NCBI RefSeq assembly: GCF_000144625.1 | Contig: NC_014376.1 | Span: forward strand, 1,612,001-1,676,000 | Origin: [Clostridium] saccharolyticum WM1 | GTDB taxonomy: Bacteria > Bacillota > Clostridia > Lachnospirales > Lachnospiraceae | Length of the DNA stretch: 64,000 nucleotides | Direction of reading: 5' to 3' | Shown: positions 8,805 through 57,239 of the stretch, piece after piece | Layout of the letters: each line of letters starts with the position of its first letter | How positions within the stretch are numbered: the first letter of the stretch is position 1 | Translations under genes and position numbers: made by a program | The notes under the pieces: model-generated | The model's database searches: none | What the model saw: only the letters and a program-made list of their open reading frames with translations | What the model was told of the DNA's origin: nothing

Positions 8805-8891
8805 GGGAATCACCCTGTGGGTTTACCAGGACGCCCTGACAAGCCGGGCGGCCCTGCCCGGAAAACATGGGCAATAAAAGAAAAAGGAGAA
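8805..8891 (+). repeat. Two-hairpin RBS-linked intergenic repeat, copy ahead of gcvH
   Basis: The sequence shows GGAATCACCC-TGTGGGTTTACC, then GGGCGG-CCCTGCCC and AACATGGGCAATAAAAG, then AAAAAGGAG just before gcvH. It is a longer, diverged member of the family best seen ahead of dapB, purF and the DUF1836 gene. Confidence 0.5.
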
Positions 8892-8897
8892 TAAAGC

Positions 8898-9281
8898 ATG
8901 AAGGTATTGGAAAATCTGGTTTACACAAAATCACATGAATGGGTAAGGTTTGAAGATGAAACCACAGCTTTGGTGGGCCTTACGGATTACGCACAGCAGT
9001 CATTGGGAGGGCTTGTTTTCGTTAATCTGCCGGAAGAAGGAGATGAGACGACAGCCGGTGAAGTATTTGCTGATGTGGAATCCGTAAAAGCTGTTTCCGA
9101 TGTGTATTGTCCGGTAACCGGAGTTGTATCAGAAATCAATGAGGAACTTCTGGATGCACCGGAAAAGATCAATGAGGCCCCGTATGAGGCTTGGTTTGCA
9201 AAGATCACCGATATTACGGATAAGGAAGAATTCTTAAGTCCTGAGGAGTACGGAGAATTTGTAAAAAAAGAAATGGAATAA
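8898..9281 (+). CDS. gcvH: Glycine cleavage system H protein
   Basis: This is the lipoyl carrier that shuttles the aminomethyl intermediate among the P, T and L proteins. It has 127 residues, the standard length. The lipoylated lysine is Lys64 in [12 protein letters not shown], within a barrel-sandwich fold, and the N-terminal SHEWVRFE motif is present. Start ATG 8898 follows AAAAAGGAG. Lysine 64 would be modified by the lipoate ligase encoded at 12063. Confidence 0.97.
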
Positions 9282-9294
9282 AGGAGGTCTGCAT

Positions 9295-10614
9295 ATGGGT
9301 TCATTTATACCGGCAACCGACCAGGACAGAAAAGAAATGCTGTCTGCGATCGGAATCAACAGCATCGAAGACCTTTTCGGGCAGCTTCCAAAGGAAGTGA
9401 TGTTACAGGATGGATTGAATCTCCCCCGGGGGATGTCTGAAATGGAAGTAAGCAAAAAAATGGAAGGCATTGCGGCAAAGAACACGGAGTTTCCGGTAAT
9501 ATTCAGGGGAGCGGGTGCGTACAGGCACTATATCCCTTCCATAGTGAAAAGTGTGTTGTCTAAGGAAACGTTATACACGGCTTATACCCCGTACCAGGCG
9601 GAAATCAGCCAGGGGATCTTACGATCCATATTTGAATACCAGACAATGATCTGCGAGATTACGGGAATGGATACGGCCAATGCCTCCGTGTATGACGGAG
9701 GGTCAGCGGCAGCAGAAGCGGTAGCGATGTGCAGGGACAGAAAGAAAAACAAGGCCTTTGTTTCTGCGGCAGTTCATCCCCATGTCATGGAGACCATAAA
9801 GACTTATTGTTTTGGAAATGGGATGGAACTTAGGGTGATTCCTGAAAAGGACGGTATCACGGATCTGGATTTTCTAAAGGAACATCTGGATGATCAGGCA
9901 GCATGTATCTATATTCAGAATCCCAATTATTACGGCAGTCTGGAACCGGCCGGGGAAATCGGAACCATAGCAAAGGAAGCCGGTGCACGCTATATCATGG
10001 GCGTAAATCCAATTTCCCTGGGAATCATAAAGACGCCGGGAGAATATGGTGCAGATGTTGCAGTAGGAGAGGGGCAGCCTCTGGGACTGCCTCTGGCATT
10101 CGGCGGTCCATATATTGGTTTCATGGCCTGCACGAAAGAACTGACCAGAAAGCTGCCCGGAAGAATTGTGGGAGAAACCGTTGATTCCAACGGAAAGACA
10201 GGATATGTCCTGACTCTCCAGGCGCGGGAACAGCATATAAGAAGAGAAAAAGCATTAAGCAACATCTGCTCAAACCAGGCGCTTTGTGCTTTGGCAGCAG
10301 GAGTCTATTTATCAGCTATGGGAGCAGAAGGACTGAAACAAACAGCCATACAGTGTATGTCAAAGGCTCACTATCTGGCAGACCAATTACAAGCAATCGG
10401 ATATCCGGTTGTAAACCGGGGAGAGTTTTTTCATGAATTTGTGACCATTTCAAAAATTCCTGCGGAACAGGTAATGGAGCTGCTGGAGGAACAGGGAATC
10501 CTGGGCGGCTATCCCTTAACTGGTGAAAGAGCCGGGCAGATTTTATGGTGCTGTACGGAATTGAATGCAAAGAATGACATGGACCGTGTCGTTGGCATTC
10601 TGAAGGAGGTGTAA
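9295..10614 (+). CDS. gcvPA: Glycine dehydrogenase (decarboxylating) subunit 1
   Basis: This is the N-terminal subunit of the two-gene P protein, the PLP enzyme that decarboxylates glycine and loads the aminomethyl group onto GcvH. The 439 residues start [16 protein letters not shown], the usual opening of this subunit, and contain [12 protein letters not shown] and [13 protein letters not shown]. It has the aminotransferase-like fold but not the PLP lysine, which sits in gcvPB. It is 13 bases after gcvH, with AGGAGG upstream. Confidence 0.96.
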
Positions 10615-10618
10615 GGGG

Positions 10619-12079
10619 ATGCTGATATTTGAAAAGGGGCAGAAAGGAAGAAGAATGACCATTCTGCCGGAATGCGATGTGCCGGTGAGACTGCCGGAGG
10701 AAGACTGCCGTAGAAAAAAGAACATGCACCTTCCCCAGGTATCTGAAAATGATATAAGCAGGCATTATACGGAAGCCGCAAAAATGGCATATGGAGTCAA
10801 TGACGGATTTTATCCTCTGGGTTCCTGCACCATGAAATATAATCCAAAAATCAATGAAGATATGGCTTCGCTTCCAGGATTTGCAAACATCCATCCTCTT
10901 CAGCCGGAGCATACGGTTCAGGGCTGCATGGAGGTTTTGAAAACAGCAGAAAATTATCTGTGTGAGATCACGGGAATGGACCGCATGACCTTTCAGCCGG
11001 CTGCAGGAGCTCACGGTGAATTTGTGGGGTTATTGCTGATAAAAGCATATCATGAGAGCCGGGGAGACGGTAAAAGAACAAAGATCATAGTACCTGATTC
11101 TGCACATGGGACCAATCCTGCCAGTGCGTCCATGGTGGGCTATTCCGTGATCAGTATTCCTTCTTCAAGAGACGGCGGGGTGGATCTGGAGGAACTGAAA
11201 AAGGCAGTGGGGGAAGATACGGCTGGGCTGATGCTGACCAATCCCAACACCTTAGGCCTTTTTGACAGAAATATTCTGGAAATAACAAAAATCGTTCATG
11301 AAGCAGGAGGGCTGGCTTATTATGACGGAGCAAATCTAAACGCAGTCATGGGAATGGTTAGACCAGGGGATATGGGCTTTGATGTGGTACACTTAAATCT
11401 TCATAAAACCTTTTCTACTCCTCATGGAGGCGGCGGTCCCGGCAGCGGGCCGGTGGGGTGCAAGAATCTGCTGGCTGGATTTTTGCCCAACAACCTGGTG
11501 GAAGAGGAAAACGGATATACCTTTAAAAGTCCTGCGCAGAGCATCGGACAGGTGAAAAATTTCTACGGAAACTTTCTGATCGTTGTCAGGGCCATGACCT
11601 ATTTATTCATGCTTGGAAAGGAAGGAATTCCGGAAGCTTCCAAGCATGCGGTATTAAACGCCAATTATATGATGGCAAAATTAAAGGATGGATATGACAT
11701 GGCATATCCGGGACCCTGTATGCATGAGTTTGTTATGAGTCTGGCCAGACTTAAAAAAGAAACCGGTGTATCAGCTATGGACATAGCAAAAGGACTTTTA
11801 GACCATGACATCCATCCCCCGACCATGTATTTCCCTCTGATCGTATCAGAGGCGTTAATGGCGGAGCCGACGGAAACGGAATCAAAGGAAACCCTGGATC
11901 ACGTGATTTCTGTACTTCTGGACCTTTATGAAACAGCCGGATCCCATCCGGAAATCCTTCATCTGGCGCCTGTCCATACACCGGTCACCAGGCTTGATGA
12001 AGTGAAAGCAGCCAGAAATTTAATGTTAAAGTATGACTTTGCAGATAAGGAAAACCATAACGATGATACAGAATATTAA
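10619..12079 (+). CDS. gcvPB: Glycine dehydrogenase (decarboxylating) subunit 2
   Basis: This is the C-terminal subunit of P protein and carries the PLP lysine: Lys263 in [20 protein letters not shown]. The 486 residues match the family. Other signatures are [12 protein letters not shown] and [13 protein letters not shown]. The start at 10619 is four bases after the gcvPA stop, behind AAGGAGGTG in the end of gcvPA. The 3' end overlaps the lipoate ligase start by 17 bases, so the operon is tightly coupled. Confidence 0.96.
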
Positions 12080-13061
12080 ATATTTCGACGGAAGCGGTTT
12101 TGACCCCTATTTAAACCTGGCCATAGAGGAATATTTAATGGAAACAACAGAGGAGGACACTTGTATCTTATACCTATGGCAGAATGAAAATACTGTTGTA
12201 ATCGGCAGGAACCAGAATCCATGGAAGGAATGCAGGATCCGGGAACTGGAAGAGGATGGCGGACATCTGGTGAGAAGATTATCAGGAGGCGGTGCCGTAT
12301 TCCATGACCTTGGCAATTTAAACTTTACGTTTCTTGTCCGAAAGAACCATTATGATCAGGATAAGCAGCTGGAGGTTATATTAAGTGGGGTCAGAAAAGT
12401 AGGAATCCATGCAGAGAAATCCGGAAGAAATGATATTACCGTATCAGGAAGGAAATTTTCCGGAAATGCCTTTTACACCCGAGGGGAGAAGTGCTATCAT
12501 CATGGAACTCTCCTGGTCCATGCTGATATGCAGAAGCTTTCCCAATATCTGCAGGTTTCAAAGGAGAAGCTGGCACTAAAAGGAGTGGACTCCGTCAAAT
12601 CAAGGGTAACCAATCTTTCCGAGTATGAGCCTGGCCTGACCATTCAAACCCTGAAGAATAAGCTGCTGGAGGCATTTGAGGAAACCTATGAACGTAAGGC
12701 GGTTTACTGCAGCCAGGAGGATTTGGATCCCAAAGCCTTGTCAGATGGAAGAAAGAAATTTTCCTCCTGGGATTGGCTGTACGGACGCAGCATGGACTTT
12801 CAGTACGAGCTGTCAAAACGGTTTGCCTGGGGGAACGGAATCTGGCAGTTTCAGGTGAACAATGGGATCGTAAAGGATCTGCAGTTGTTTTCCGATTCTA
12901 TGGAGCCGGATCTGGTAGACAGGATCCCCGGATATATAAAGGGAAGCAGATACGAATATAAGGATATCTGTCACAGACTGGATCAGGTGCCGGCAGAGAC
13001 CCAGACCCAGTCAATCATAATAAATGATTTAAAAGAGTTTTTTGCCGCTGCTGAATTATAG
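12063..13061 (+). CDS. lplA: Lipoate-protein ligase A
   Basis: This enzyme activates lipoate with ATP and attaches it to lysines of carrier proteins, here presumably GcvH. The 332 residues have the biotin/lipoate ligase core with [20 protein letters not shown] (about residues 71-90) and [10 protein letters not shown], followed by the accessory C-terminal domain of bacterial ligases (from about 240). The start at 12063 is chosen over an upstream in-frame ATG at 12033 because the family begins just before the [18 protein letters not shown] motif. No lipoyl synthase is visible nearby, suggesting lipoate scavenging. Confidence 0.92.
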
Positions 13062-13079
13062 AAGCCAGGGAGGGATTGA

Positions 13080-14492
13080 ATGGATGTCATATATGATCTG
13101 CTTGTTATTGGTGCAGGCCCCGGAGGATATGTGGCGGCAATAAAAGCTGCAAAGCTGGGGATGAAGACCGGGTTGATAGAAAACCGGGAAGTGGGAGGTA
13201 CCTGTTTAAACCGGGGGTGTGTTCCTGCAAAGGCTTTGCTGCATGCTGCCAAATTATATCAGGAGGTTCTGTCCGGAGAACGGTTCGGAATTGTTTCCAA
13301 AGAGGTGAGTTATGATTACGGCAAAGTATTGTCCTATAAAAATGAAACCTCTGAAAGCCTCAGACTTGGTGTGGAACAGCTCCTTAAGGGAAATAAAATA
13401 GAACAGATCCATGGAACCGGGACGCTGATAAAGGATGGAAGAGTCAGGGTTAAGACAGAGGAGGAAGAACGGATCCTTCAGGCAAAGAATATCTTACTGG
13501 CCACAGGTTCCAAGCCCTCTTTTCCTCCTATAGAGGGAATCCGCCTTCCGGGAGTCATGACCAGCGATGATATGTTTCTACTTGATCATGTGCCGGAAAG
13601 TCTGGTTATTATAGGCGGCGGGGTCATTGGTGTGGAATTTGCCACCGTATTCTCTTCCTTTGGTTCCAGGGTCACCATACTGGAAGCAGAAGATAAACTT
13701 CTGCCCGGCCTGGATAAAGAAATATCACAGAATGTTAAGATGCTTTTGAAAAAGAGAGGCGTCACCATCCATACCAGAGCGTTTGTCCGGAAAATTGAAA
13801 CAGAGGGCCTTGATTTTATCTGTACTTTTACGGAGAAGGGGAAGGAGAAAGAGAAAACAGAGGTCTTAAAGACACCGTGTCTGCTTTCGGCAGCCGGACG
13901 TATCCCCATGACGGAAGGTCTGCTGGAGGATGGGACATTACTGGAAATGGACCGGGGCAGAATAAAGGTAAGTAAAAACTTTGAAACAAGTATGCCGGGC
14001 GTGTTTGCCATCGGAGATGTCATCGGAGGTATCCAGCTGGCCCATGCTGCAAGCGCCCAGGGGATCTGCGCGGTAGAATGGATGAATGGGAAAGAGCCGT
14101 CTATTGATCTGTCAGTCGTTCCGTCCTGTGTATATACAGACCCTGAAATTGCATGTGTAGGTATGACGGAAGAGGATGCAAAAGAAAAGGGAATTGAGAC
14201 CGTAACCGGAAGATTCTTAACCCATGCCAACAGTAAATCATTGATAACAAAAGAAGAAAGAGGTTTTGTTAAGGTTGTAGCAGATAAGGAAACCAATGTA
14301 CTGCTGGGAGCACAGATGATGTGTGCCAGAGCGACGGACATGATTGGGGAAATGGGGACCGCCATATCCAATAAGCTTACTGCAAAGCAGCTTTTAAAGG
14401 CCATGCGTGCCCATCCTACCTATAATGAATCCATAGGGGAAGCGTTGGAGGACTGCATTGGCGGAGCCATTCATGCACTGCCCCGAAAATAA
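13080..14492 (+). CDS. lpdA: Dihydrolipoyl dehydrogenase (glycine cleavage L protein)
   Basis: This FAD enzyme reoxidises dihydrolipoyl-GcvH with NAD. The 470 residues hold GAGPGGYVAA for FAD, the redox disulfide GGTCLNRGCVPAK (Cys42, Cys47), the NAD motif IGGGVIGVEFA near 180, GVFAIGDVIGG, and the C-terminal HPTYNESIGEA catalytic His-Glu. All active residues are present. AGGGAGGG precedes the ATG at 13080. It is the last gene of the operon, 18 bases after lplA. Confidence 0.96.
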   Translation: MDVIYDLLVIGAGPGGYVAAIKAAKLGMKTGLIENREVGGTCLNRGCVPAKALLHAAKLYQEVLSGERFGIVSKEVSYDYGKVLSYKNETSESLRLGVEQLLKGNKIEQIHGTGTLIKDGRVRVKTEEEERILQAKNILLATGSKPSFPPIEGIRLPGVMTSDDMFLLDHVPESLVIIGGGVIGVEFATVFSSFGSRVTILEAEDKLLPGLDKEISQNVKMLLKKRGVTIHTRAFVRKIETEGLDFICTFTEKGKEKEKTEVLKTPCLLSAAGRIPMTEGLLEDGTLLEMDRGRIKVSKNFETSMPGVFAIGDVIGGIQLAHAASAQGICAVEWMNGKEPSIDLSVVPSCVYTDPEIACVGMTEEDAKEKGIETVTGRFLTHANSKSLITKEERGFVKVVADKETNVLLGAQMMCARATDMIGEMGTAISNKLTAKQLLKAMRAHPTYNESIGEALEDCIGGAIHALPRK

Positions 14493-14612
14493 TTCATTGT
14501 AATATCAGACAGTCCCTATTTTACATTTTTTGCCGCTATATTTATGAAACCGAAATCTTCTGCATAGTTTCTCAGGAAATACAAAAACTAATGGCAGATA
14601 GGAGGTATCATT

Positions 14613-14816
14613 ATGGCAAAAGCAGGTATGAGAAGACCAAGTCCCTATGATTCAAACAACCATGGTACAGAGAATCATGAGAAAATGCATCGTCCAAAAA
14701 ATGAGCAGGCCCGGGTCCCGGAAATTCAGGGCGCAGCCAAGAATGGAAATGACAAGGCCGGTCCGGTCAATGCCCCAAACTGGGCCAGAGACGATTACAA
14801 AACAGGAAACAAATAG
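14613..14816 (+). CDS. Small hydrophilic protein (67 aa), unknown
   Basis: This 67-residue, highly polar, probably disordered protein is rich in Asn, Lys, Gly and Pro (starts MAKAGMRRPSPYDSNNHGTE). There are no membrane segments or cysteines. The ATG at 14613 follows AGGAGG and the gene is bounded by its own terminator, so it is likely expressed. It resembles small stress or spore-associated clostridial proteins only in composition; no function is assigned. Confidence 0.65.
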   Translation: MAKAGMRRPSPYDSNNHGTENHEKMHRPKNEQARVPEIQGAAKNGNDKAGPVNAPNWARDDYKTGNK

Positions 14817-14820
14817 AAAG

Positions 14821-14851
14821 ATAGAGACCTAACTCGTTAGGTCTCTATTTT
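14821..14851. terminator. Bidirectional terminator hairpin
   Basis: ATAGAGACCTAAC and GTTAGGTCTCTAT form a perfect 13-bp stem followed by TTTTG. It sits between convergent genes (the 67-aa ORF and the MATE gene) and can serve both. Confidence 0.8.
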
Positions 14852-14866
14852 GTCATATGCTTATCA

Positions 14867-16706: not shown

Positions 16707-16728
16707 ATAGATGCACCTCATGCAGAAT

Positions 16729-16750
16729 AATAGTTCAACATTGAACTATT
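16729..16750. promoter_or_regulatory. Perfect palindromic operator of the MarR-MATE operon
   Basis: AATAGTTCAA-CA-TTGAACTATT is a perfect 10-bp inverted repeat with a 2-base spacer, placed between the -10 box and the MarR start codon. This size and position fit autorepression by a MarR dimer. Confidence 0.75.
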
Positions 16751-23960: not shown

Positions 23961-23972
23961 CATGCGTATTAA

Positions 23973-24030
23973 AGAAACACCTGAAAGGTGTACCTTCCTG
24001 CCTTACAAAAGGCGGGAAAGAGGAAAGGAG
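23973..24030 (+). repeat. Two-hairpin RBS-linked intergenic repeat, copy ahead of the GH2 gene
   Basis: GAAACACC-TGAA-AGGTGTACCTTCCTGCC followed by AAAAGGCGGGAAAGAGGAAAGGAG. Both arms of the family are visible: ACACC/GGTGT and GCC/GGC, with the AAGAGGAAAGGAG ribosome binding site at the end. Confidence 0.65.
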
Positions 24031-37126: not shown

Positions 37127-37200
37127 ATGTTTTCCTCTTTCCTGCCCATGCCTCCTGGGCATAAAAGTATGCCCGCAGGGTACAGGCCTTCCGCACGGCT
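37127..37200 (-). repeat. Two-hairpin RBS-linked intergenic repeat, copy ahead of the DUF1836 gene
   Basis: On the minus strand: CTGTACCCTGCGGGCATAC, TTTTATGCCCAGGAGGCAT, GGGCAGGAAAGAGGAAAAC, then ATATG. The TGCCC/GGGCA arms and the AGGAAAGAGGAAA RBS match the copies at dapB and purF. Confidence 0.75.
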
Positions 37201-38237: not shown

Positions 38238-39563
38238 ATGAAGATTGAAGAAACGGCAGAAGAATATTTAAGCCGGATTCCCATGTGGACCAGAAAGAAA
38301 AATTCTCTTGAAGATATCCGGAAGTTTCTTTGGGAAATGGGAGAACCGGATGAAGGGATGCAAATTTTTCATGTGGCAGGTACCAATGGAAAAGGGTCGG
38401 TATGTGCATTTTTACAGTCTGTGTTAAGAACGGCAGGCTGCAGGGTAGGTACTTTTACTTCTCCGCATCTCATGGAAATCAGAGAGCGTTTCTGTATCAA
38501 TGGTGAGATGGTGGCGGAGGAAGTTTTCGAAGAAAGCTACAGAGCCGTCAGAATGCTTTCCCGGAGTATGATGGAGAAAGGGTATTGCCACCCGTCTTAT
38601 TTTGAGTTTTTATTTTATATGGCGATGGACATGTTCCGAAAAACGGAAATGGATATTGTAATCCTGGAAACAGGCCTTGGAGGGAGGCTGGACACCACCA
38701 ATGTCATTCGGTCCCCCCTGGTATCTGTGATCACCTCCATCAGCCTGGATCATATGGAATATCTGGGAAATACCATTGAAAAGATCGCATGGGAGAAGGC
38801 TGGAATTATAAAGAGAGGGGTCCCGGTAGTTTTTGACGGAAACGAAAGGACATCGTCTCAGGTCATCCGCAGCAGGGCGAAGGAGATTGGCTCTCCCTTT
38901 TATGAGGTGGACAGGCAGGGGTATGAAATAACCGGCTGGAGAGATAAGGGGTGCCAGGCCAGATTTTATAAAGCCGGGGGGGATTTTATCGAAGTGAACG
39001 TTCCCTCCGTTGCAGAATATCAGGTTATGAACGCCTTTCTTTCATATAAAGCTCTTGAGGCAGCAAGGCTTAAGGAGGTTATGGGCCTTGAGATTTCCCC
39101 TGGGCAGCTGAAGGAAGGAATTGCTCATATGTACTGGCCGGGCAGAATGGAAGAGGTGCTTCCTGGGGTATATCTGGACGGAGCCCATAATCCGGGCGGC
39201 ATCAGGGCCTTTACCCAAGCGGCAGCCGGTTTGTGTGAAGCCGGGAAGAAACGGGCAACTTTGTTGTTTTCGTCAGTATCCGATAAGGATCATAATAAAA
39301 TGATTAAGGAAATTGCAGGGGCGCTGCCTCTTGATTTGGTGGCGGTGGCTCATATACACTCGGAAAGAGGACTTGAAACGGAGATCCTGCTTAAGGAGTT
39401 TCAAAATGCCTGCGGCTGCGGTGTGAAGGGATTTCCGTCAGTGGAAGAGGCAGTTTTATACATGCTTCATATAAAGGATGAAGGGCATCTGTTGTTTTGT
39501 GTGGGTTCCCTTTACCTTATGGGGGAGATAAAAGCGGTTTTAAGGAGGAACTCCATTCCATGA
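38238..39563 (+). CDS. folC: Folylpolyglutamate synthase / dihydrofolate synthase
   Basis: This 441-residue Mur-ligase-type enzyme adds glutamate to folates using ATP. The P-loop is GTNGKGS (about residues 46-52), with the folate-binding FTSPHLMEIRERFCI, ETGLGGRLDTTNV and the ADP-site LDGAHNPGGI. The ATG at 38238 gives the usual IPMWTRKKN N-terminus; an earlier ATG at 38217 is possible, since neither has a strong SD. Folate polyglutamates serve the glycine cleavage and purine pathways encoded in this window. Confidence 0.93.
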   Translation: MKIEETAEEYLSRIPMWTRKKNSLEDIRKFLWEMGEPDEGMQIFHVAGTNGKGSVCAFLQSVLRTAGCRVGTFTSPHLMEIRERFCINGEMVAEEVFEESYRAVRMLSRSMMEKGYCHPSYFEFLFYMAMDMFRKTEMDIVILETGLGGRLDTTNVIRSPLVSVITSISLDHMEYLGNTIEKIAWEKAGIIKRGVPVVFDGNERTSSQVIRSRAKEIGSPFYEVDRQGYEITGWRDKGCQARFYKAGGDFIEVNVPSVAEYQVMNAFLSYKALEAARLKEVMGLEISPGQLKEGIAHMYWPGRMEEVLPGVYLDGAHNPGGIRAFTQAAAGLCEAGKKRATLLFSSVSDKDHNKMIKEIAGALPLDLVAVAHIHSERGLETEILLKEFQNACGCGVKGFPSVEEAVLYMLHIKDEGHLLFCVGSLYLMGEIKAVLRRNSIP

Positions 39564-39600
39564 ATACCTGGATGCCCGGAAAAGATGGGCAGGAAAGAGG
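39555..39600 (+). repeat. Two-hairpin RBS-linked intergenic repeat, partial copy
   Basis: TGAATACCTGGATGCCCGG, AAAAGATGGGCAGGAAAGAGGAAA, just ahead of the ATG at 39608. The ATGCCC/GGGCA arm and the AGGAAAGAGG RBS are intact; the first arm is lost or diverged and overlaps the end of folC. Confidence 0.65.
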
Positions 39601-39607
39601 AAAGCAT

Positions 39608-39748
39608 ATGATCGATTTTGAAGCTGAGATTGACAGTTACAGGCCAAGCCTGGAGGTTGATGCCATAGAAGATGCCATTGTAAGAAGTGATCTGACGGAT
39701 ATGAATGATCTGATGATGGATCTTATAAAAGAAATCAACAAGGAATAG
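39608..39748 (+). CDS. Small acidic protein (46 aa), unknown
   Basis: This 46-residue acidic peptide begins MIDFEAEIDSYRPSLEVDAI and ends in DLMMDLIKEINKE, predicted mostly helical. The ATG follows AAAGAGGAAAGC with seven-base spacing. It lies between folC and a TPR protein, 11 bases ahead of the latter. It may form a small complex with the TPR protein, but this is only positional inference. Confidence 0.6.
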   Translation: MIDFEAEIDSYRPSLEVDAIEDAIVRSDLTDMNDLMMDLIKEINKE

Positions 39749-45535: not shown

Positions 45536-45537
45536 AC

Positions 45538-45612
45538 AGGCACTCTGGGGATGTGTCTGTTGAAAGACAACCTTCATGTCCGGAGATTATGGGCAATAAA
45601 GAAGAAAGGAGA
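45538..45612 (+). repeat. Two-hairpin RBS-linked intergenic repeat, diverged copy ahead of spoVAE
   Basis: GGCACTCTGGGGATGTGTCT, AACCTTCATGTCC, ATTATGGGCAATAAAGAAGAAAGGAG. The ATGTCC..GGGCAATAAA arm resembles the gcvH copy (GGGCAATAAAAG), with the RBS at the end. Confidence 0.45.
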
Positions 45613-49555: not shown

Positions 49556-49658
49556 TAAGGGAGAGAAGCTTGAAATAAACTGTCGAAAAAGGAGGAAAAA
49601 ATCTTGCAATATGATATATAGGATGATATACTGGATAATTGTGATAATGTAAATGAAA

Positions 49659-49687
49659 CTAAGGGCGGATCTGGTCCTTAGTTTTTT
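49659..49687 (+). terminator. Terminator after yigZ-like gene
   Basis: CTAAGG and CCTTAG form a 6-bp stem around an 11-base loop, followed by six T residues. The remaining 49688-49798 is the typA leader, with another weak hairpin around GGCCGGTATACC. Confidence 0.7.
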
Positions 49688-49798
49688 ATGATATGGGAAC
49701 AGGATTGCCTGTATTATAAAAATGTACTTTGGCCGGTATACCCTATGAATGGCCGGGGTACATTCTTTGTTTAAAGAGTAGAAAGAAGAGTACAGTTT

Positions 49799-51640
49799 AT
49801 GAAGATGAAAAGAGAAGACGTAAGAAATGTGGCAATTATTGCCCACGTCGATCATGGCAAAACAACCCTGGTGGACGCACTGCTTAAGCAAAGCGGCATT
49901 TTCCGTGAAAATCAGGAAGTCATGGAGCGGGTCATGGATTCCAATGATATTGAGAGAGAGCGGGGAATCACCATTTTATCCAAGAATACGGCTGTTCATT
50001 ACAGCGGGACCAAGATCAACATTATTGATACCCCAGGCCATGCGGATTTTGGCGGTGAGGTAGAGCGTGTTTTAAAAATGGTAAACGGAGTGATCCTGGT
50101 GGTGGATGCCTATGAGGGCGTTATGCCCCAGACAAAGTTCGTCCTTCGGAAAGCACTGGAGCTGGGACTGTCTGTGGTGACCTGCATTAATAAAATCGAC
50201 CGCCCGGAGGCAAGGCCCCAGGAGGTAGAAGAAGAAGTCTTAGAGCTTCTCATGGACCTTGATGCCAATGAAGAGCAGTTGGACTGTCCCTTTATCTATG
50301 CTTCTGCGAAAGCCGGATTTGCCAAAAAGGAGCTTGAGGATCCGGAAGCTGACATGGGTCCGCTGTTTCAGACTGTTATCGATCATATTCCGGCTCCCGA
50401 AGGAGATCCGGATGCCTCCACCCAGCTTCTCATCAGCACCATTGACTACAATGAATACGTTGGCCGTATCGGCGTAGGCAAAGTGGATAACGGAAGGATC
50501 AGGGTGAATCAGGAATGCGTAATCGTAAACCACCATGACCCGGATAAATTCCGCAAGGTAAAGGTTGGAAAACTTTATGAATACGAAGGCCTTAACAAGG
50601 TAGAGGTCCAGGAGGCCACCATAGGAGCCATTGTGGCGATATCCGGTATTACGGATATCCATATCGGGGATACCCTCTGCTCTTCGGATAAGCCGGAGGC
50701 GATTCCGTTCCAGAAGATTTCAGAACCAACCATTGCCATGAATTTCATGGTAAATGACAGCCCTCTTGCCGGACAGGAAGGAAAGTACATCACCTCCCGC
50801 CATATCAGGGAGCGCTTATTTAAAGAGCTGAATACGGATGTCAGCCTTCGTGTGGAGGAGACCGATTCTCCAGACTGCTTTAAGGTTTCCGGCCGGGGAG
50901 AGCTTCATTTGTCTGTTCTGATTGAGAACATGAGAAGAGAAGGCTTTGAATTTGCTGTCAGCAAGGCAGAGGTTTTGTACCGCTATGATGAGAGGAACCA
51001 TAAGCTGGAGCCTATGGAGATCGCCTATGTGGACGTTCCGGAGGAATTTACAGGTGCCGTTATCCAGAAGCTGACAAGCCGTAAGGGAGAGCTTCAGGGT
51101 ATGAGTCCTGCCAACGGAGGCTATACAAGACTGGAGTTTGCCATTCCTTCCAGAGGACTTATCGGTTACCGGGGAGAGTTCATGACGGATACAAAAGGAA
51201 ACGGAATCATGAATACGGCATTTGACGGCTACGCACCTTTTAAGGGAGAGTTGTCCTACCGGAAGACGGGATCCCTCATTGCCTATGAATCAGGGGAATC
51301 CATTACCTACGGCCTGTTTGGCGCCCAGGAGAGGGGAAGTCTGTTTATCGGACCAGGCGTAAAGGTTTATTCCGGTATGGTTGTGGGACAAAATCCAAAG
51401 GCGGAAGACATTGAGATTAATGTATGTAAGACGAAAAAACTGACCAACACCCGTTCTTCCAGTGCGGATGAGTCTCTTAAGCTGACACCGCCTAGGGAAA
51501 TGAGCCTGGAACAGTGCCTTGACTTTATTGATACCGATGAACTTCTGGAGATCACCCCTTCCAATCTTCGGATCAGAAAGAAAATTTTAGACCCAACCTT
51601 AAGAAAAAGGTCTTCTCTCAACAAAAAATCATTGGCGTAA
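49799..51640 (+). CDS. typA: Translational GTPase TypA/BipA
   Basis: This 613-residue ribosome-associated GTPase supports translation and assembly at low temperature and under stress. G1 is AHVDHGKTTLVD, G3 is DTPGHADFGGE and G4 is NKIDRPEARP. It then has the EF-G-like domain 2, domains III and V and the BipA-specific C-terminal domain (SSSADESLKLTPPREMSLEQ). The length is the family norm. The GAAGAG SD is modest. Single-gene unit with its own terminator. Confidence 0.97.
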   Translation: MKMKREDVRNVAIIAHVDHGKTTLVDALLKQSGIFRENQEVMERVMDSNDIERERGITILSKNTAVHYSGTKINIIDTPGHADFGGEVERVLKMVNGVILVVDAYEGVMPQTKFVLRKALELGLSVVTCINKIDRPEARPQEVEEEVLELLMDLDANEEQLDCPFIYASAKAGFAKKELEDPEADMGPLFQTVIDHIPAPEGDPDASTQLLISTIDYNEYVGRIGVGKVDNGRIRVNQECVIVNHHDPDKFRKVKVGKLYEYEGLNKVEVQEATIGAIVAISGITDIHIGDTLCSSDKPEAIPFQKISEPTIAMNFMVNDSPLAGQEGKYITSRHIRERLFKELNTDVSLRVEETDSPDCFKVSGRGELHLSVLIENMRREGFEFAVSKAEVLYRYDERNHKLEPMEIAYVDVPEEFTGAVIQKLTSRKGELQGMSPANGGYTRLEFAIPSRGLIGYRGEFMTDTKGNGIMNTAFDGYAPFKGELSYRKTGSLIAYESGESITYGLFGAQERGSLFIGPGVKVYSGMVVGQNPKAEDIEINVCKTKKLTNTRSSSADESLKLTPPREMSLEQCLDFIDTDELLEITPSNLRIRKKILDPTLRKRSSLNKKSLA

Positions 51641-51651
51641 AATGTAATATT

Positions 51652-51714
51652 AAGGAGAATGCTGCCCTCATTAACCGAAAATTCGGCAATGCGGCGGCGT
51701 TCTCCTTCTTTTTC
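51652..51714 (+). terminator. Terminator after typA
   Basis: AAGGAGAATGCTGCC and GGCGGCGTTCTCCTT pair with two mismatches around a loop that contains a smaller CCGAA/TTCGG hairpin; CTTTTTCT follows. Confidence 0.85.
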
Positions 51715-51843
51715 TTGGACATTCTGCCTTGTTGTGTCGATATTTTTGGATTGTTTTCTATCATTTTAGGGGATTCTATCACATAAATTTAATATTAGCT
51801 GTGAAGCATATTAGCAAATAAGTGAAAGAAGAGGGGAAATACA

Positions 51844-52470
51844 ATGTCAGAAAAAATGATTGAAAACAACAAAGTGAGCGTTATCGGAGAAATCATCTCC
51901 GGCTTCACCTTCAGCCATGAAGTATTTGGAGAAGGATTCTATATGGTGGATGTTGCGGTAAACCGTCTCAGCGAACAGGCAGATGTGATACCGCTCATGA
52001 TTTCAGAACGTCTGATCGACGTGGAAGGGGACTACACCGGTTTAACGGTGGAATCCATTGGCCAGTTCCGTTCCTATAACCGTCATGAAGGAACGAAAAA
52101 CAGACTGGTGCTTTCTGTTTTTGTAAGGGAGATCCATTTTATAGAAGAGTTTACAGATTATACGAAGACCAATCAGATTTTTCTCGATGGATATATATGC
52201 AAAGCTCCCATTTACAGGAAAACGCCTTTGGGAAGGGAAATTGCGGACCTGCTCCTGGCGGTTAACCGCCCATATGGAAAATCAGATTACATACCCTGCA
52301 TCGCATGGGGGAGAAATGCCAGATATGCTTCAGGATTTTCGGTAGGAACCAGAGTTAAAGTATGGGGAAGGGTCCAGAGCAGGGAATACACCAAAAAATT
52401 AAGTGAAACAGAGTGTGAAAAGAGAGTGGCTTACGAAGTTTCGGTCAGCAAGCTGGAGTGTGCGGAATAA
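51844..52470 (+). CDS. ssb: Single-stranded DNA-binding protein with two OB-like halves
   Basis: This 208-residue protein has two SSB-like OB segments: residues 8-100 (VSVIGEIISGFTFSHEVFGE) and 110-205 (QIFLDGYICKAPIYRKTPLG with IPCIAWGRNARYAS and VWGRVQSREY). It lacks the acidic DDDIPF tail of canonical SSB. Two-OB SSB-like proteins are found in Lachnospiraceae. The canonical SSB of the cell is probably encoded elsewhere, so this may be a paralog. The start at 51844 follows GAGGGGAAATACA. Confidence 0.75.
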   Translation: MSEKMIENNKVSVIGEIISGFTFSHEVFGEGFYMVDVAVNRLSEQADVIPLMISERLIDVEGDYTGLTVESIGQFRSYNRHEGTKNRLVLSVFVREIHFIEEFTDYTKTNQIFLDGYICKAPIYRKTPLGREIADLLLAVNRPYGKSDYIPCIAWGRNARYASGFSVGTRVKVWGRVQSREYTKKLSETECEKRVAYEVSVSKLECAE

Positions 52471-52484
52471 AGCTGCTATATATA

Positions 52485-52590
52485 AATCAGGGAATGCCTT
52501 CCAGGCATCCCTTTATGCCCGGTAAAAGCATGTGCAATAGAAAAGAACGCCTGCAGGCTCCCTTGATGCGCAAAAGGCATGTGTAATATT
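52485..52590 (+). repeat. Two degenerate tandem copies of the two-hairpin repeat
   Basis: First copy: GGGAATGCCTTCCAGGCATCC, CTTTATGCCC, AAAAGCATGTGCAATAG. Second: GAACGCCTGCAGGCTCCC, TTGATGCGC, AAAAGGCATGTGTAATA. Both keep the order arm, CCTTTATGCCC-like spacer, arm. They lie 110-215 bases ahead of the cobO-like gene and not at its start codon. Nothing else is found in 52471-52698. Confidence 0.55.
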
Positions 52591-52698
52591 AAGGAAATGG
52601 TAAGAAAACTTGCAAAATAATTAAAATTATGATACGATAAGCAGGTTCTAACATAATATGTAAATAATTGCTTTTTGGCTGTTATGAGGTGCTGAAAG

Positions 52699-53202
52699 AT
52701 GAGTAGAGGTGCGATACAGGTTATATACGGGGAAGGAAAAGGTAAGACAGCGGCTGCAGTAGGTATGGGAATCGCAGCCCTGGCCCAAAATAGAACTGTT
52801 ATTATGATACAGTTTTTAAAGGGATGCTCTGGCCGGACTTCATTTGATGTTATAAAATGCCTGGAGCCTGAGATGAAAATATTCCGGTTTGAAAAGTCCG
52901 ATTGCTTTTTTGAAAGCCTTTCTAAAGAACAGCAGGAGGAAGAACGGAGAAATATCCGTAACGGCCTGAATTTTGCAAAAAAGGTCGTTTCAACCGGGGA
53001 GTGCGATATGCTGATCCTGGATGAGATTCTTGGGCTTCTGGACCAGAAAATCATAGAGCCGGAGGAGCTGACAAAGCTGCTTCAGTCCAAAGTTGATGAT
53101 ATGGAGGTCCTATTAACCGGTAAGGTATTTCAAAAGGAAATAGAACCTTATGTAGACAGTATTCTGGAAATCAAACATGTTAAAGTTGACAACACAAAAT
53201 AA
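52699..53202 (+). CDS. Corrinoid adenosyltransferase (CobO/BtuR-like)
   Basis: This 167-residue protein of the CobA/CobO/BtuR family transfers the adenosyl group of ATP to cob(I)alamin to make coenzyme B12. The N-terminal P-loop is VIYGEGKGKTAAAVG (Gly11-Thr17), with IQFLKG and the Walker B-type MLILDEI. It is a little shorter than typical (about 180-200). GAGGTG precedes the ATG. No cobalamin synthesis genes are near, suggesting corrinoid salvage. Confidence 0.87.
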   Translation: MSRGAIQVIYGEGKGKTAAAVGMGIAALAQNRTVIMIQFLKGCSGRTSFDVIKCLEPEMKIFRFEKSDCFFESLSKEQQEEERRNIRNGLNFAKKVVSTGECDMLILDEILGLLDQKIIEPEELTKLLQSKVDDMEVLLTGKVFQKEIEPYVDSILEIKHVKVDNTK

Positions 53203-53214
53203 TAATGATAGTAT
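53186..53214 (+). promoter_or_regulatory. Sigma-A promoter of the lysine riboswitch-dap operon
   Basis: TTGACA (53186-53191) and TAGTAT (53209-53214) are spaced by 17 bases. The -35 lies inside the end of the cobO-like gene. Confidence 0.65.
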
Positions 53215-53232
53215 GGTAACATACATAATAGA

Positions 53233-53393
53233 GTAGAGGTTGCGTTGCTTATTAGTACTCTGTCCGATGTATCAGGTACAGATGAGGGCAGGGGGAAGGA
53301 AGAAACGCCGAAGAACGGTATGGCCTGAGCGTACTTGTTCTGGGCATATGGTTAAGAGCCATATGACTGTCATCCAATTGGATGGGGAGCTAC
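53233..53393 (+). ncRNA. Lysine riboswitch (L box)
   Basis: Closing helix GTAG/CTAC, core AGAGGTTGCG, AGTACTCTGTCC, AGGGGGAAGGAAGAAACGCCGAAG-type (read as GGGGGAAGG ... GCCGAAG), CATATGGTTAAGAGCCATATG hairpin, GACTGTCATCC and GGGGAGCTAC match the L-box. It sits between a promoter and a terminator, upstream of dapA, and should repress dapA-dapB when lysine is abundant. Confidence 0.92.
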
Positions 53394-53429
53394 TTAAAGA
53401 AAGATGAGATTACCAGATTCTGAACTTTA

Positions 53430-53461
53430 AGAGCTGACCCTGTTGTCAGCTCTGTTTTTTA
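53430..53461 (+). terminator. Terminator controlled by the lysine riboswitch
   Basis: AGAGCTGAC and GTCAGCTCT form a 9-bp stem with a 6-base loop, followed by a G and a run of T residues. It is 37 bases after the aptamer. Confidence 0.85.
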
Positions 53462-53570
53462 TTCCTGGAAAATTTTGCTCTATGAATAAAATGCTTTGCG
53501 GAACAGAGAAGACATCGGGCCGGATGAAAGTTTACTATGTATGACGAAAAAGAATCAGGAGGATGATATT

Positions 53571-54455
53571 ATGGCAATTTTTGAAGGGGCAGGTGTAGCC
53601 CTTGTTACACCATTTAAGGAAAACGGGGAAGTTAACTATGAAAAACTGGAAGAGCTGACAGAAGAGCAGATCGCATTAGGAACAGATTCTATCATTGTAT
53701 GCGGTACAACAGGCGAAGCGTCCACCATGACTCATGAGGAGCACTTAGAGGCGATTAAATTCGTGTGTGATGTGACGAGAAAAAGAATTCCTGTCATTGC
53801 AGGAACCGGCTCCAATTGCACGGATACGGCTGTTTACCTGTCTAAGGAAGCTCAAAGGAACGGCGCGGACGGGCTTCTCCTCGTTTCTCCTTACTATAAT
53901 AAAGCAACTCAGAACGGGCTGAAGGCTCATTTTAAGGCAGTTGCCGGTGAAGTAAAGATTCCTATTCTTCTATATAATATTCCAGCGAGGACCGGAGTTA
54001 ATATTACTGCCGAGACCATAGCGGATTTGTGCCTAAATGTCCCCAACATTGTGGGAGTAAAAGAGGCAAGCGGCAATTTTTCTGCGATAGCGGATTTAAT
54101 GAATCTTACGGACGGCCGGGTGGATCTGTATTCCGGCAATGATGACCAGATCGTCCCCATGCTTTCTTTGGGAGGGAAAGGGGTTATTTCTGTTCTCTCC
54201 AACATTGCACCGGCTCAGACTCACGAAATCTGTGAGGCTTATTTTGCTGGAGATGTGAAGCGGAGCGCCGCACTGCAGCTGGCTGCAATACCTCTTATCA
54301 ATGCCTTATTCTGCGAAGTAAATCCCATTCCGGTAAAGGCAGCCTTAAATTTAATGGGGAAAGGTGCTGGCCCTATGCGTCTGCCTCTTACTGAGATGGA
54401 ACCTAAGAATCAGGAACGATTAAAACAAGCCATGATTGCGTATGGAATTCTGTGA
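53571..54455 (+). CDS. dapA: 4-hydroxy-tetrahydrodipicolinate synthase
   Basis: This 294-residue enzyme condenses pyruvate and aspartate semialdehyde, the first lysine/diaminopimelate-specific step and the source of dipicolinate for spores. Signatures are GTTGEASTMTHEEHLE, the Schiff-base lysine in VGVKEASGNF, the Tyr in LYNIPARTGVNI and GNDDQIVPMLSLG. The start at 53571 follows CAGGAGGATGATATT; an upstream ORF start at 53496 lacks an SD. Confidence 0.97.
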   Translation: MAIFEGAGVALVTPFKENGEVNYEKLEELTEEQIALGTDSIIVCGTTGEASTMTHEEHLEAIKFVCDVTRKRIPVIAGTGSNCTDTAVYLSKEAQRNGADGLLLVSPYYNKATQNGLKAHFKAVAGEVKIPILLYNIPARTGVNITAETIADLCLNVPNIVGVKEASGNFSAIADLMNLTDGRVDLYSGNDDQIVPMLSLGGKGVISVLSNIAPAQTHEICEAYFAGDVKRSAALQLAAIPLINALFCEVNPIPVKAALNLMGKGAGPMRLPLTEMEPKNQERLKQAMIAYGIL

Positions 54456-54474
54456 CCGGTAAATGATACAAAAT

Positions 54475-54578
54475 GAGGAAACACCCTTCGGGTATCCCTT
54501 TATGCCAAAAAAACCTGGGCAGGAAAGAGGAAACACCCTGGGGGTATCCCTTTATGCCCAAAAAGCCTGGGCAGGAAA
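54475..54578 (+). repeat. Exact 52-bp tandem duplication of the two-hairpin RBS element, ahead of dapB
   Basis: Two units (54475-54526 and 54527-54578) each read GAGGAAACACCC, GGGTATCCCTTTATGCC, a short A-rich loop, then CCTGGGCAGGAAA. They differ in a few loop bases. The third GAGGAA (54579) is the dapB RBS. The family consensus hairpins are ACACCC/GGGTAT and TGCCC/GGGCA. Confidence 0.85.
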
Positions 54579-54586
54579 GAGGAAAC

Positions 54587-55345
54587 ATGATTAGGATGAT
54601 AATGCACGGCTGTAACGGGGCCATGGGACAAGTGGTGACCGGGATTGCAGCAGAGGAAAAGAATATAGTCATTGTTGCGGGAATCGATCCCCATGATACC
54701 GGTCAGAATCCATATCCGGTATTTCCGTCTCTTGAGTCTTGTAACATAGAAGCAGATGTGATCGTTGATTTTACTTCCTCCAAAGCGGTGGATGGTCTTC
54801 TTGATTACAGCGTCAGGAAAGAAATACCGGTGGTAGTATGTACCACAGGGCTTTCTGAGGAGCAGATGAAAAAGCTGGAAGAGGCTGCAAATCATGTAGC
54901 AGTACTTAAGTCAGCCAACATGTCTCTTGGAGTCAACCTGCTTATGAAGCTGGTAAAAGACGCAGCCCAGATTCTTGCGGCAGCAGGATTTGACATTGAA
55001 ATATTGGAAAAGCATCACAATAAGAAACTGGATGCCCCCAGCGGAACTGCCCTTGCCCTGGCAGATTCCATCAATGAAGCTATGGATCAGGAGTTTCATT
55101 ATGTATACGACAGAAGTCAGGTCAGAAAGGCCAGAGACAAAAAAGAGATCGGGATCCAGTCCGTCCGGGGAGGAACCATCGTCGGAGAACATGATGTGAT
55201 TTTTGCAGGAACGGATGAGATCGTCACCTTCCATCATACTGCCTATTCCAAAGCGATTTTTGCAAAAGGCGCTGTCTCCGCAGCAAAGTTCCTGGCAGGA
55301 AAAGCCCCGGGATTCTATACCATGAAAGATGTAATAGATTCTTAA
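54587..55345 (+). CDS. dapB: 4-hydroxy-tetrahydrodipicolinate reductase
   Basis: This 252-residue NAD(P)H enzyme reduces the DapA product. It has the nucleotide motif MHGCNGAMGQVV, the DFTSSKAVDGLLDYSV region, CTTGLSEEQMKKLEE, the substrate loop SANMSLGVNLLMKLV, EKHHNKKLDAPSGTALALAD with the conserved Lys/His residues and GTDEIVTFHHTAYSK. Start ATG 54587 is directly after the duplicated repeat, whose final GAGGAAAC provides the SD. It is the second gene of the lysine-regulated unit. Confidence 0.95.
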   Translation: MIRMIMHGCNGAMGQVVTGIAAEEKNIVIVAGIDPHDTGQNPYPVFPSLESCNIEADVIVDFTSSKAVDGLLDYSVRKEIPVVVCTTGLSEEQMKKLEEAANHVAVLKSANMSLGVNLLMKLVKDAAQILAAAGFDIEILEKHHNKKLDAPSGTALALADSINEAMDQEFHYVYDRSQVRKARDKKEIGIQSVRGGTIVGEHDVIFAGTDEIVTFHHTAYSKAIFAKGAVSAAKFLAGKAPGFYTMKDVIDS

Positions 55346-55421
55346 AAATTCCAAAATTTCCCACCATAATTCATTCGGCCTTTACACATACTAATCGTAG
55401 AAAATGAAAGGAGAATGTATT

Positions 55422-55739
55422 ATGAAGAGAATAAAACCATTTGCAATCGCACTGATTGTCATTATGACAGTCATGTGTCTGTCAGCCTGCGGTACCACCA
55501 AGAATAACGATGGAACTTCAGCAGGTACAACAGCAGCTACTACCCAGACTACAGCAGCAACAACAAAGACTGATACTACCAGCGCTGCTGATACAACAGG
55601 TGCCGGAGCTTCTACAACTGGTGCGAATGAAAGCACCGGAGTGGTTAATGGTGCTGTTAACGATGTAGAAAAAGGAGTAGACAAAATAACAGGGGAAAGC
55701 AATGGCCAGCCAACCACTGAAGTCACAAAGGCTCCATAA
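55422..55739 (+). CDS. Threonine/serine-rich lipoprotein, unknown
   Basis: This 105-residue protein has a lipoprotein signal (lipobox LSAC, Cys23) and then about 60 residues rich in Thr, Ala, Gly and Ser (TTAATTQTTAATTKTDTTSA), a likely unstructured spacer, ending in a VVNGAVNDVEKGVDKITGE segment. The latter resembles small clostridial lipoproteins. AAAGGAGAATGTATT precedes the ATG at 55422. Role unknown; exposed on the cell surface. Confidence 0.75.
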   Translation: MKRIKPFAIALIVIMTVMCLSACGTTKNNDGTSAGTTAATTQTTAATTKTDTTSAADTTGAGASTTGANESTGVVNGAVNDVEKGVDKITGESNGQPTTEVTKAP

Positions 55740-55751
55740 TAAAAAAAATAT

Positions 55752-55791
55752 GAAAAAGCTTCAGGCAGGAATTCCATGCTTGAAGCTTTTT
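55752..55791 (+). terminator. Terminator after the lipoprotein gene
   Basis: AAAAAGCTTCA and TGAAGCTTTTTT form an A/U-flanked stem, with the descending T tract as part of the arm. Confidence 0.85.
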
Positions 55792-55937
55792 TAATTATAA
55801 GTTATAATAAAATTATCAAGTCTTGCTGTATTTTCAATCATTTCTATTTTTATTTTTATCAAAAACCTATATTCCGGCCGGATATCCAGAACATTTTAAT
55901 TTAGTAAGGGCCTGCTTGGCAGGGAGGCAGAACAAAT

Positions 55938-56309
55938 ATGAAAGGGAAATTTGATTATTTTAAATATCAGCGGTATAATAAGAAAAGAAAAAAAACCTGG
56001 AGAAACCTTAAGCGGTTTATTCCCCACGAAGAGAGCCGGATCCTGCGCTTAAGAAAAAGCCTGCTGCTTCTTCTTGCTTTGGAAGGTACGGCACTTACTT
56101 TGCTGTATGGAGGTATGATTGGAGATAATGAAAACGGATTTCTGTTTTTCGGTTATGAAACAAAGGAAGAGAAGGAAGTGACGGCGGAAGCTTTCTGGGC
56201 CAGAAAAACCGGAGAAACCAGGGAGCGGGGACTATCCGTTGACTGGAAGGACGGCACGTTGAAACTCTGGCAGAAGGTGGAGCGGGTGATTCTTCAGGGA
56301 CCTGATTGA
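55938..56309 (+). CDS. Hypothetical membrane-anchored protein (123 aa)
   Basis: This 123-residue protein has a strongly basic N-terminus (about residues 1-45, KKRKKTWRNLKRF), one membrane helix (about 43-62, LLLLLALEGTALTLLYGG) and an acidic, charged C-terminal tail probably outside the cell. The ATG lies about 18 bases after AGGGAGG, so spacing is only fair. No domain is recognised; it lies between the lipoprotein and the purine genes. Confidence 0.55.
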   Translation: MKGKFDYFKYQRYNKKRKKTWRNLKRFIPHEESRILRLRKSLLLLLALEGTALTLLYGGMIGDNENGFLFFGYETKEEKEVTAEAFWARKTGETRERGLSVDWKDGTLKLWQKVERVILQGPD

Positions 56310-56357
56310 GAAATAAAATCCCATGATGGTCATAAGTATTTATAATAATAAAACCAG

Positions 56358-56386
56358 TTGCAATCCCATTTTTACTGTATTATAAT
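56358..56386 (+). promoter_or_regulatory. Predicted sigma-A promoter of the purC-purF unit
   Basis: TTGCAA (56358-56363) and TATAAT (56381-56386) are spaced by 17 bases, 70 bases ahead of purC. No purine riboswitch was seen in this leader. Confidence 0.6.
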
Positions 56387-56455
56387 TTCTACTGAAACAC
56401 CATAGTTTTATTTGAAAAACTTATAAATTAATTCAGAAAAGGACAGGTGGATACC

Positions 56456-57163
56456 GTGGAGAAAAAAGAACTGCTGTATGAGGGAAAAGCGAAAAAGGTT
56501 TATACGACAGAAGACCCCGATGTATTGATCGTTTCATACAAAGATGATGCAACCGCATTTAATGGTCTTAAAAAAGGCACGATTGTGGGTAAAGGCGCGG
56601 TCAACAACCGGATGACAAACTTTATCTTCAAGAAGCTGGAAGCCAAAGGCGTTCCCACCCACCTGGTGGAAGAGTTAAATGACCGTGAGACTGTGGTGAA
56701 GAAAGTGGAGATCATTCCTCTTGAGGTAATCATCAGAAACTATTCCGCAGGAAGCTTTGCTAAAAAGATGGGTATGGAAGAAGGCATAAAATTCGCCTGC
56801 CCCACACTTGAATTCAGTTATAAAAACGACGATTTGGGTGATCCGTTCATTAACAGCTATTATGCCCTGGCCCTGGAGCTGGCGACTCAGGATGAGATCG
56901 ATAAAATCACGGAATATGCCTTTAAAGTAAATGAAGTGCTTAAAGAATATTTCGATCGTTTAAATATTGATTTAATCGATTTTAAGATAGAATTCGGCCG
57001 TTACCATAATCAGGTTATTCTGGCTGATGAGATCTCCCCGGATACATGCAGGCTGTGGGATAAGGATACCCACGAAAAGCTGGATAAGGACCGTTTCCGC
57101 AGGGATTTGGGCGGTGTGGAAGACGCATATGAGGAAGTATTCCGCCGCCTGGGCATCCGGTAA
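56456..57163 (+). CDS. purC: Phosphoribosylaminoimidazole-succinocarboxamide synthase
   Basis: This 235-residue SAICAR synthase performs the ATP-dependent addition of aspartate to CAIR in purine synthesis. It begins [18 protein letters not shown] and contains [31 protein letters not shown] and [13 protein letters not shown]. Translation starts at GTG 56456, in line with the family; a second GTG three codons earlier is possible. AAAGGACAGGTGG precedes it. Confidence 0.95.
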
Positions 57164-57167
57164 GCAG

Positions 57168-57230
57168 CATAGAGAGGAACAACCAACGGGTGTACCTTTA
57201 TACTTAAATAGCATGGGCTGGAAAGAGGAA
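57168..57230 (+). repeat. Two-hairpin RBS-linked intergenic repeat, copy ahead of purF
   Basis: GAGAGGAACAACC-AAC-GGGTGTACCTTTATAC, then AGCATGGGCTGGAAAGAGGAAAG before the purF ATG at 57240. The first arm is diverged but the GTGTACCTTTAT spacer and GGAAAGAGGAAA RBS are intact. Confidence 0.65.
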
Positions 57231-57239
57231 AGATATCAG

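Follow-up and report, generated by a model that had tools for sequence, protein, structure and literature searches.

Why should a set of unrelated genes in one bacterial chromosome begin behind the same pair of hairpins? The question is raised by a stretch of 64,000 nucleotides (nt) from [Clostridium] saccharolyticum WM1 (contig NC_014376.1, positions 1,612,001 to 1,676,000 of the forward strand), here called the window. An earlier note on this DNA reported a dispersed two-hairpin element at eight places ahead of genes, and proposed that it is a repeat family that carries its own Shine-Dalgarno (SD) sequence and spreads. The element is present at all eight places, twice ahead of dapB, both on direct reading and in a covariance-model search. 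The repeat family at translation starts is real and is far larger than the window. Our preferred reading, which we consider probable, is a short interspersed repeat family of the Lachnospiraceae that inserts in the sense direction at or beside the SD, multiplies locally and leaves a usable SD behind; the earlier guess at the nature of the repeat was largely right.

Structure of the repeat unit

The unit is about 52 nt long and consists of hairpin 1, a conserved ACCnnTATG stretch that leads into hairpin 2, hairpin 2 itself, and a purine tail, (G)GAAAGAGGAAA. Hairpin 1 has six paired positions and a loop of 3 nt, while hairpin 2 has five pairs and a loop of mostly 7-9 nt. The exact tail AGGAAAGAGGAAA occurs 19 times genome-wide, versus 2 times for the reversed motif. 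Seven window copies, with ends set by eye and the two-hairpin structure then assigned, make up alignment A2, and a covariance model (R1) was built from seven window copies. The copies in the window are:

8804..8884, plus strand: gcvH copy, long form with an extra internal hairpin; R1 29.9 bits, E 1.4e-5, not in the training set
23971..24027, plus strand: GH2 copy (open reading frame, ORF, from 24041); R1 64.1 bits, training sequence; fold z -4.78, a stability that 0 of 200 shuffles reach
37130..37189, minus strand: DUF1836 copy; R1 68 bits, training sequence; site empty in 10 of 10 resolved relatives
39545..39604, plus strand: orf46 copy (ATG 39608), overlapping the end of the upstream ORF; R1 71.2 bits, training sequence
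45547..45608, plus strand: spoVAE copy, divergent; R1 28.6 bits, E 3.3e-5, not in the training set
52488..52549, plus strand: cobO-spacer copy, degenerate; R1 62.9 bits, training sequence; ends 149 nt before the ATG
54475..54534, plus strand: dapB copy 1 of a tandem pair; R1 78.8 bits, training sequence
54527..54586, plus strand: dapB copy 2 of the tandem pair (ATG 54587); R1 79.7 bits, training sequence; its tail is an SD-like motif adjoining the start
57173..57232, plus strand: purF copy (ATG 57240); R1 68.9 bits, training sequence

Because seven of these nine copies trained R1, their R1 scores are high by construction; the gcvH and spoVAE copies are independent matches. The gene names (gcvH, GH2, DUF1836, spoVAE, cobO, dapB, purF) are putative labels, in part those of the earlier note. 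That note had described one layout with ACACC/GGTGT arms at all its places. The layout is indeed shared, and the cobO copy is as degenerate as it had said, but the orf46 copy lacks those arms, the gcvH copy is of the long form and the spoVAE copy is divergent. At the orf46 site in relatives, the arms read TCCAT/ATGGA in G014 and CCAT/ATGG in the second unit of G008 (by eye).

Compensatory change is strong in both hairpins. The test used alignment A7, which holds 110 matches from relatives and other genera and no copies of the genome that trained the second model (R2, see below). In hairpin 1, 83.4% of cells are paired with 45 double-change cells, and in hairpin 2, 95.0% with 20 double-change cells; neither count is reached in any of 500 shuffles, and slid controls score below both hairpins. 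Of the six pairs of hairpin 1, one fails to form in 70 of 102 copies. Descent alone can lift related sequences above shuffles. Nevertheless, the arms vary by genus (TGTCC/GGACA, TGGCA/TGCCA, TGCGC/GCGCA, TGGCC/GGCCA), and arms that differ and yet remain complementary argue for a real constraint on the hairpins. Folds of single copies are mostly ordinary (n=7), with z -2.25 for the DUF1836 copy and -0.51 to -1.48 for those other than it and the GH2 copy.

Several smaller features of the unit were seen along the way. At model positions 8 and 20 of hairpin 1, 105 of 179 copies have C facing A, and none has G-U (alignments A3 and A7); C-A here is a G-T wobble on the other strand. Positions 7-21 show the reverse pattern, with 20 G-U and 0 A-C. 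An alternative hairpin, ATGC/GCAT, competing with TGCCC/GGGCA, seemed plausible by eye and in a test on 37 copies, where 6 of 2000 shuffles attained its full pairing and 294 of 2000 its mean pairing. It was dropped with 186 copies, for which the link between positions 31 and 39 is not significant (152 of 1000). As to a terminator role, no U-run follows the hairpins in the copies inspected by eye. In long-form units the hairpin-2 loop holds an extra hairpin (ACGCCC...GGGGC, then CTGCCC...GGGCA; by eye), and the short unit could be a deletion product of the long form. Long-form units, identified by eye, are:

8804-8884 of the window
G000:C1:3132-3216
278-384 of stretch L116
8606-8688 of stretch L117

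Number and distribution of copies

The genome-wide repeat family that had been proposed, with the excess of copies that this implies, is borne out by the covariance-model search. With R1, at least 141 places at E<=1 are found in the 4,662,871-base genome (among the best 150 of 1660 candidates scored), where about 1 would be expected by chance, R1 E-values being rough. R2, built from 116 matches in stretches of the window genome, finds at least 139 places at E<=0.01 (among the best 150 of 2612 candidates scored). Both counts are lower bounds, the gcvH copy, found locally, being in neither list. The 141 places form 98 clusters, of which 70 are single, 16 double, 9 triple and 3 fourfold. Neighboring units are spaced 43-96 nt apart, mostly 50-53, and overlap by the purine end.

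At E<=0.001, R1 finds the element in 25 of 25 genomes of the genus and in 0 of 36 genomes from other genera, and the number of copies per genome within the genus ranges from 2 to at least about 90. R2 extends the range, with matches in 53 of 397 genomes sampled across the family Lachnospiraceae, or 45 of 334 genera, including the window genome and one congener. In a class-wide sample at E<=1e-4, the matches are confined to 3 of 391 genomes, namely the window genome, one congener and one member of another family; with 13-14 candidates scored per genome, absences in the family and class searches are weak. The best-match copies from 20 other Lachnospiraceae genomes retain the layout, copies from regions chosen by high-scoring matches leaning to the consensus. 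Phage and plasmid records gave no match to one 70-base window stretch holding a dapB copy, and viral contigs no exact match to one consensus pattern.

Placement at translation starts

The earlier note had placed the element at translation starts, and this holds for most clusters of the genome. For 95 of the 98 clusters, we asked whether the end of the unit is followed, within 25 nt, by an ATG that begins a same-strand frame of at least 45 codons, and it is in 85; controls shifted by -300 to +400 nt give 8-27 of 95, and the opposite strand gives 9 of 95. Two of the ten exceptions precede further decayed units (by eye). A decayed second unit also follows the cobO-spacer copy in the window (52545-52597, plus strand, GAACGCCTGCAGGC...TGTAATATTAAGGAAA; by eye). 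In other Lachnospiraceae genera, an ATG frame lies within 25 nt of the last unit in 19 of 25 cases. A same-strand frame of at least 80 codons ends within 400 nt upstream in 86 of the 95 clusters, and in 57 the upstream same-strand frame ends within 50 nt, so that most copies sit between co-directional genes, inside operons.

The claim that the element carries its own SD holds in part. When SD-like cores of at least 4 nt at a spacing of 3-14 are counted in the 85 clusters, the core lies in the tail only in 35, in host or junction sequence only in 31, in both in 10 and in neither in 9. Unit-to-ATG distances cluster around 0-4 and 7-16 nt (by eye). Together, the counts and the two distance groups suggest two situations: the SD comes from the element, or the element lies immediately ahead of a host GGAG. 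With the copies masked, the motif [AG]GGAA occurs 50 times in intergenic parts of the window, 11 of these within 20 nt of a gene start. The SD preference looks stronger than this motif alone predicts (11/50 versus 85/95), the control resting on longest-ORF starts in one window and undercounting true SDs. Either selection purges other insertions, or SDs are favored targets.

From the 94 downstream proteins, 20 that looked recognizable were picked and then scanned, several of them cut by the fetched stretch. They are recF, glutamate racemase, era, dapF, cysS, alr, a gyrA/parC-type topoisomerase, smc, mutL, def, dnaG, ysxC, clpX, clpP, argB, mnmA, gatC, aspS, rplB and metK, the topoisomerase and smc matches falling below curated scores. 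No common pathway was seen among these 20. The element precedes the genes for ribosomal protein L2, MetK, DnaG, ClpX, ClpP, AspS and others.

Filled and empty sites in related genomes

A stretch of about 20 kb from 20 Lacrimispora relatives, corresponding to window 38-58 kb and with gene order largely kept, allows filled and empty sites to be compared. All nine sites compared are polymorphic for the element, which some species have and others lack at the same SD or SD-like motif; at these loci it is not a fixed leader. At dapB, 18 of 20 relatives are empty and 2 are filled; for example, the empty site reads TATACATATGGAGGAAAACATG in G001 and the filled site TATGAGGAAA-[unit]-ACATG in G002. The purF site is empty in 16 of 20 and filled in 4. 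At orf46, 15 of the 17 resolved relatives are empty (AACGGATATG) and 2, G014 and G008, are filled (AAAGCATATG). The cobO spacer is short in 14 of 20 relatives, while 6 have apparent degenerate copies, of which only that of G006 scores with R2. The DUF1836 site is, as listed above, empty in every resolved relative, and the 18 resolved spoVAE spacers comprise 11 that are short and empty, 1 with a copy (G001) and 6 that contain a remnant or other inserts. At three further sites only relatives carry the element, and the empties there number 11, 16 and 13; the window genome is empty at two of these.

At the cleanest sites the unit starts directly after a target GRAA or GGTAA (by eye). Filled sites belong to copy-rich species and empty sites to copy-poor species, which fits gains. 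The earlier suggestion that the element can replace the start region of a gene fares less well: judged from the empty sites, the unit enters the SD or the sequence next to it and only minor changes arise between tail and ATG, which gives replacement weak support. Sister species with and without the element at the same gene form natural pairs for testing how leader structure affects translation.

Arrays differ among relatives as well. In the relatives of the gene at window 48739 (minus strand), whose product starts MNYGKQ, arrays are present in G014, G013 and G008, and their hairpin-2 loops are near-identical within a species and differ between species. By eye, this pattern suggests concerted change within arrays.

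Possible mechanism

Dispersion, polymorphism and arrays together speak for movement or copying of the element. For the interspersed repeat family favored here, a unit would insert on the 3' side of a GRAA-like motif that coincides with an SD or adjoins one, and the gene would remain translatable because the tail, or a host GGAG just after it, still works as an SD. Insertion before essential genes would then be tolerated. Arrays would expand and contract as their repeated purine ends recombine or slip, and the unit would arrive at new sites through template switching at this microhomology, or with the help of an enzyme. If template switching is driven by microhomology among AGGAAA-like sites, it would account for the arrays, for the uniform orientation and for the preference for SDs; tandem copies have AGGAAA-like ends in common, and the right end of the unit reads as part of the unit. 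In the mRNA the two hairpins would provide a structured spacer before the SD that modulates or insulates initiation, and we infer a translational effect of the element.

A number of observations count against the favored reading. The placement test fails in 10 of 95 clusters and for 6 of 25 last units in other genera, and the element supplies the SD for only part of its copies. A longer helix that would hide the SD is weakly supported, lying close to shuffles. Precise loss between the end repeats can also yield empty-looking sites, and at dapB a longer purine stretch in G014, G013, G008 and G006, which were called empty, is a possible footprint. The left and right purine repeats are barely more alike than shuffles over 7 nt (4.27 versus 4.11, 62/5000); over 13 nt the likeness is reached in 3/5000 shuffles, but in 61/5000 for single copies alone. 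The short shared purine ends, with their weak left-right correlation, do not establish a faithful target-site duplication. Among the copies compared no unlinked pair is identical, the closest being at edit distance 4 in G000 and 3 in relatives, so that very recent movement is not seen. Finally, no mobilizing enzyme or transposition intermediate was found, the enzyme search being aimed at the Y1 domain (PF01797). The earlier note's proposal of spread without a transposase stays a conjecture, examined through Y1, which gave no match in G014 and G009.

A more far-reaching version is a serious possibility, although we would stop short of calling it probable: the element would insert selectively at ribosome-binding sites, restore the site that it interrupts and spread without a dedicated transposase, with many copies perhaps being recruited afterwards. 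It would be a translation-level counterpart of a self-splicing intron. If this is true, spread would run by copying between short SD-like purine ends, and recruited copies may set the translation of essential operon genes.

Alternative explanations

The alternative that survives best, though we judge it unlikely, is a cis-regulatory regulon, in which one RNA-binding factor binds the hairpin pair and controls the translation of about 100 genes, the copies being kept for this role and turning over like other regulatory sites. In its favor are the strict sense placement ahead of starts, the compensatory changes in both hairpins, the conserved ACCnnTATG and a layout that is alike across genera. 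However, nine of nine sites differ between species in presence or absence, copies within the genus range from 2 to at least 90, and the 20 scanned downstream genes, with roles in repair, tRNA charging, the cell wall, proteolysis and the ribosome, share no theme.

It is improbable that the element is of the REP/REPIN type and moved by an IS200-like tyrosine (Y1) transposase. The hairpins are short, intergenic and present in many copies, and 20 of 25 congeneric genomes carry a Y1 domain. The single-contig genomes G014 and G009, with at least 89 and at least 90 places, nonetheless give no PF01797 match (a lost transposase is possible), GTAG or CGTC occurs in the first 12 nt of only 2 of 95 clusters, and none of the 141 places has an opposite-strand neighbor within 300 nt.

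A switch that sequesters the SD (a thermosensor or riboswitch) by pairing CCUUU with the tail's AAAG(A)GG is likewise improbable: the helix appears in predicted folds of 4 of 7 copies and 77.1% of its cells are paired, but shuffles pair 75.4% (11/500 as high; covariation score 16/500, double-change cells 65/500) and other genera carry CCATT, CCTGT or CCAGT at the CCUUU position.

Relation to known repeats

One parallel is the TAACTGA family of marine Beggiatoaceae. In the excerpts of PMC4679880 consulted, these repeats occur in tandem sets, many per genome, mostly in the forward direction and a few nt before start codons, and they are patchy across species with no gene-function pattern, all of which recalls the present element. 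The TAACTGA unit is, however, a bare 7 nt with little SD character and with SDs rare alongside it, whereas the present unit has 52 nt, two covarying hairpins, an SD-like tail and a spacing of 43-96 nt.

REPs, as excerpted from PMC3733652 and PMC3116915, carry GTAG or CGTC tags and lie mostly downstream of genes, and REPINs are inverted doublets tied to RAYT. Like the element, they are short palindromic intergenic repeats of high copy number, many plausibly transcribed and sometimes in tandem arrays. Unlike them, the element has no tags, and its units are direct and abut the next start, though mostly between two genes. The pneumococcal BOX, RUP and SPRITE repeats resemble it in being narrowly distributed, structured and interspersed, with past proliferation, BOX being modular as well. 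According to the portions of PMC3049150 used, BOX and RUP have terminal inverted repeats and target duplications, SPRITE is enriched at gene 3' ends, and none is placed at the SD, the distinction being one of description. By eye, both ends of the present unit are GAGGAAA-like in the same direction, in contrast to the terminal inverted repeats expected of a MITE (miniature inverted-repeat transposable element). The many dispersed copies, polymorphic between relatives, agree with bacterial short interspersed repeats in general.

The families of the excerpted papers are found chiefly at the ends of genes or in spacers at large. The present family would show how a repeat is able to settle where an operon is most tightly constrained.

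In line with the earlier note, which knew of no named family that fits, no Rfam 15 family reaches its gathering score on the window copies, although Rfam 15 does include structured leaders before genes, which are similar in kind. At E<=10, there are 7 matches below threshold at six loci, and no bacterial leader is among them; two, mir-204 (E 4.8) and XIST_A_REPEAT (E 6.5), fall on copies and appear to be due to chance. Titles, abstract openings and some passages of the open-licence PMC literature, PMC2864571 and PMC6429828 included, contain no description that we recognized as this element.

Other features of the window

In five relatives (G009, G002, G014, G013 and G006) the spacer before spoVAE contains one or two other inverted repeats (GCAGAAATATTTG..., CCCGCATTCATAATTTGGCG...; by eye), so that more than one repeat family may favor this spacer as a hot spot. 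These repeats were located by eye in the following stretches:

L116
L117
L118
L119
L121

The 46-amino-acid ORF behind the orf46 copy (39608-39748, plus strand) is probably a real small gene; its sequence and position are kept in the 17 relatives compared (by eye). Two riboswitch aptamers lie on the plus strand, one for glycine at 7474-7556, ahead of the ORF at 7715, and one for lysine at 53226-53400, ahead of the ORF at 53496, presumably dapA.

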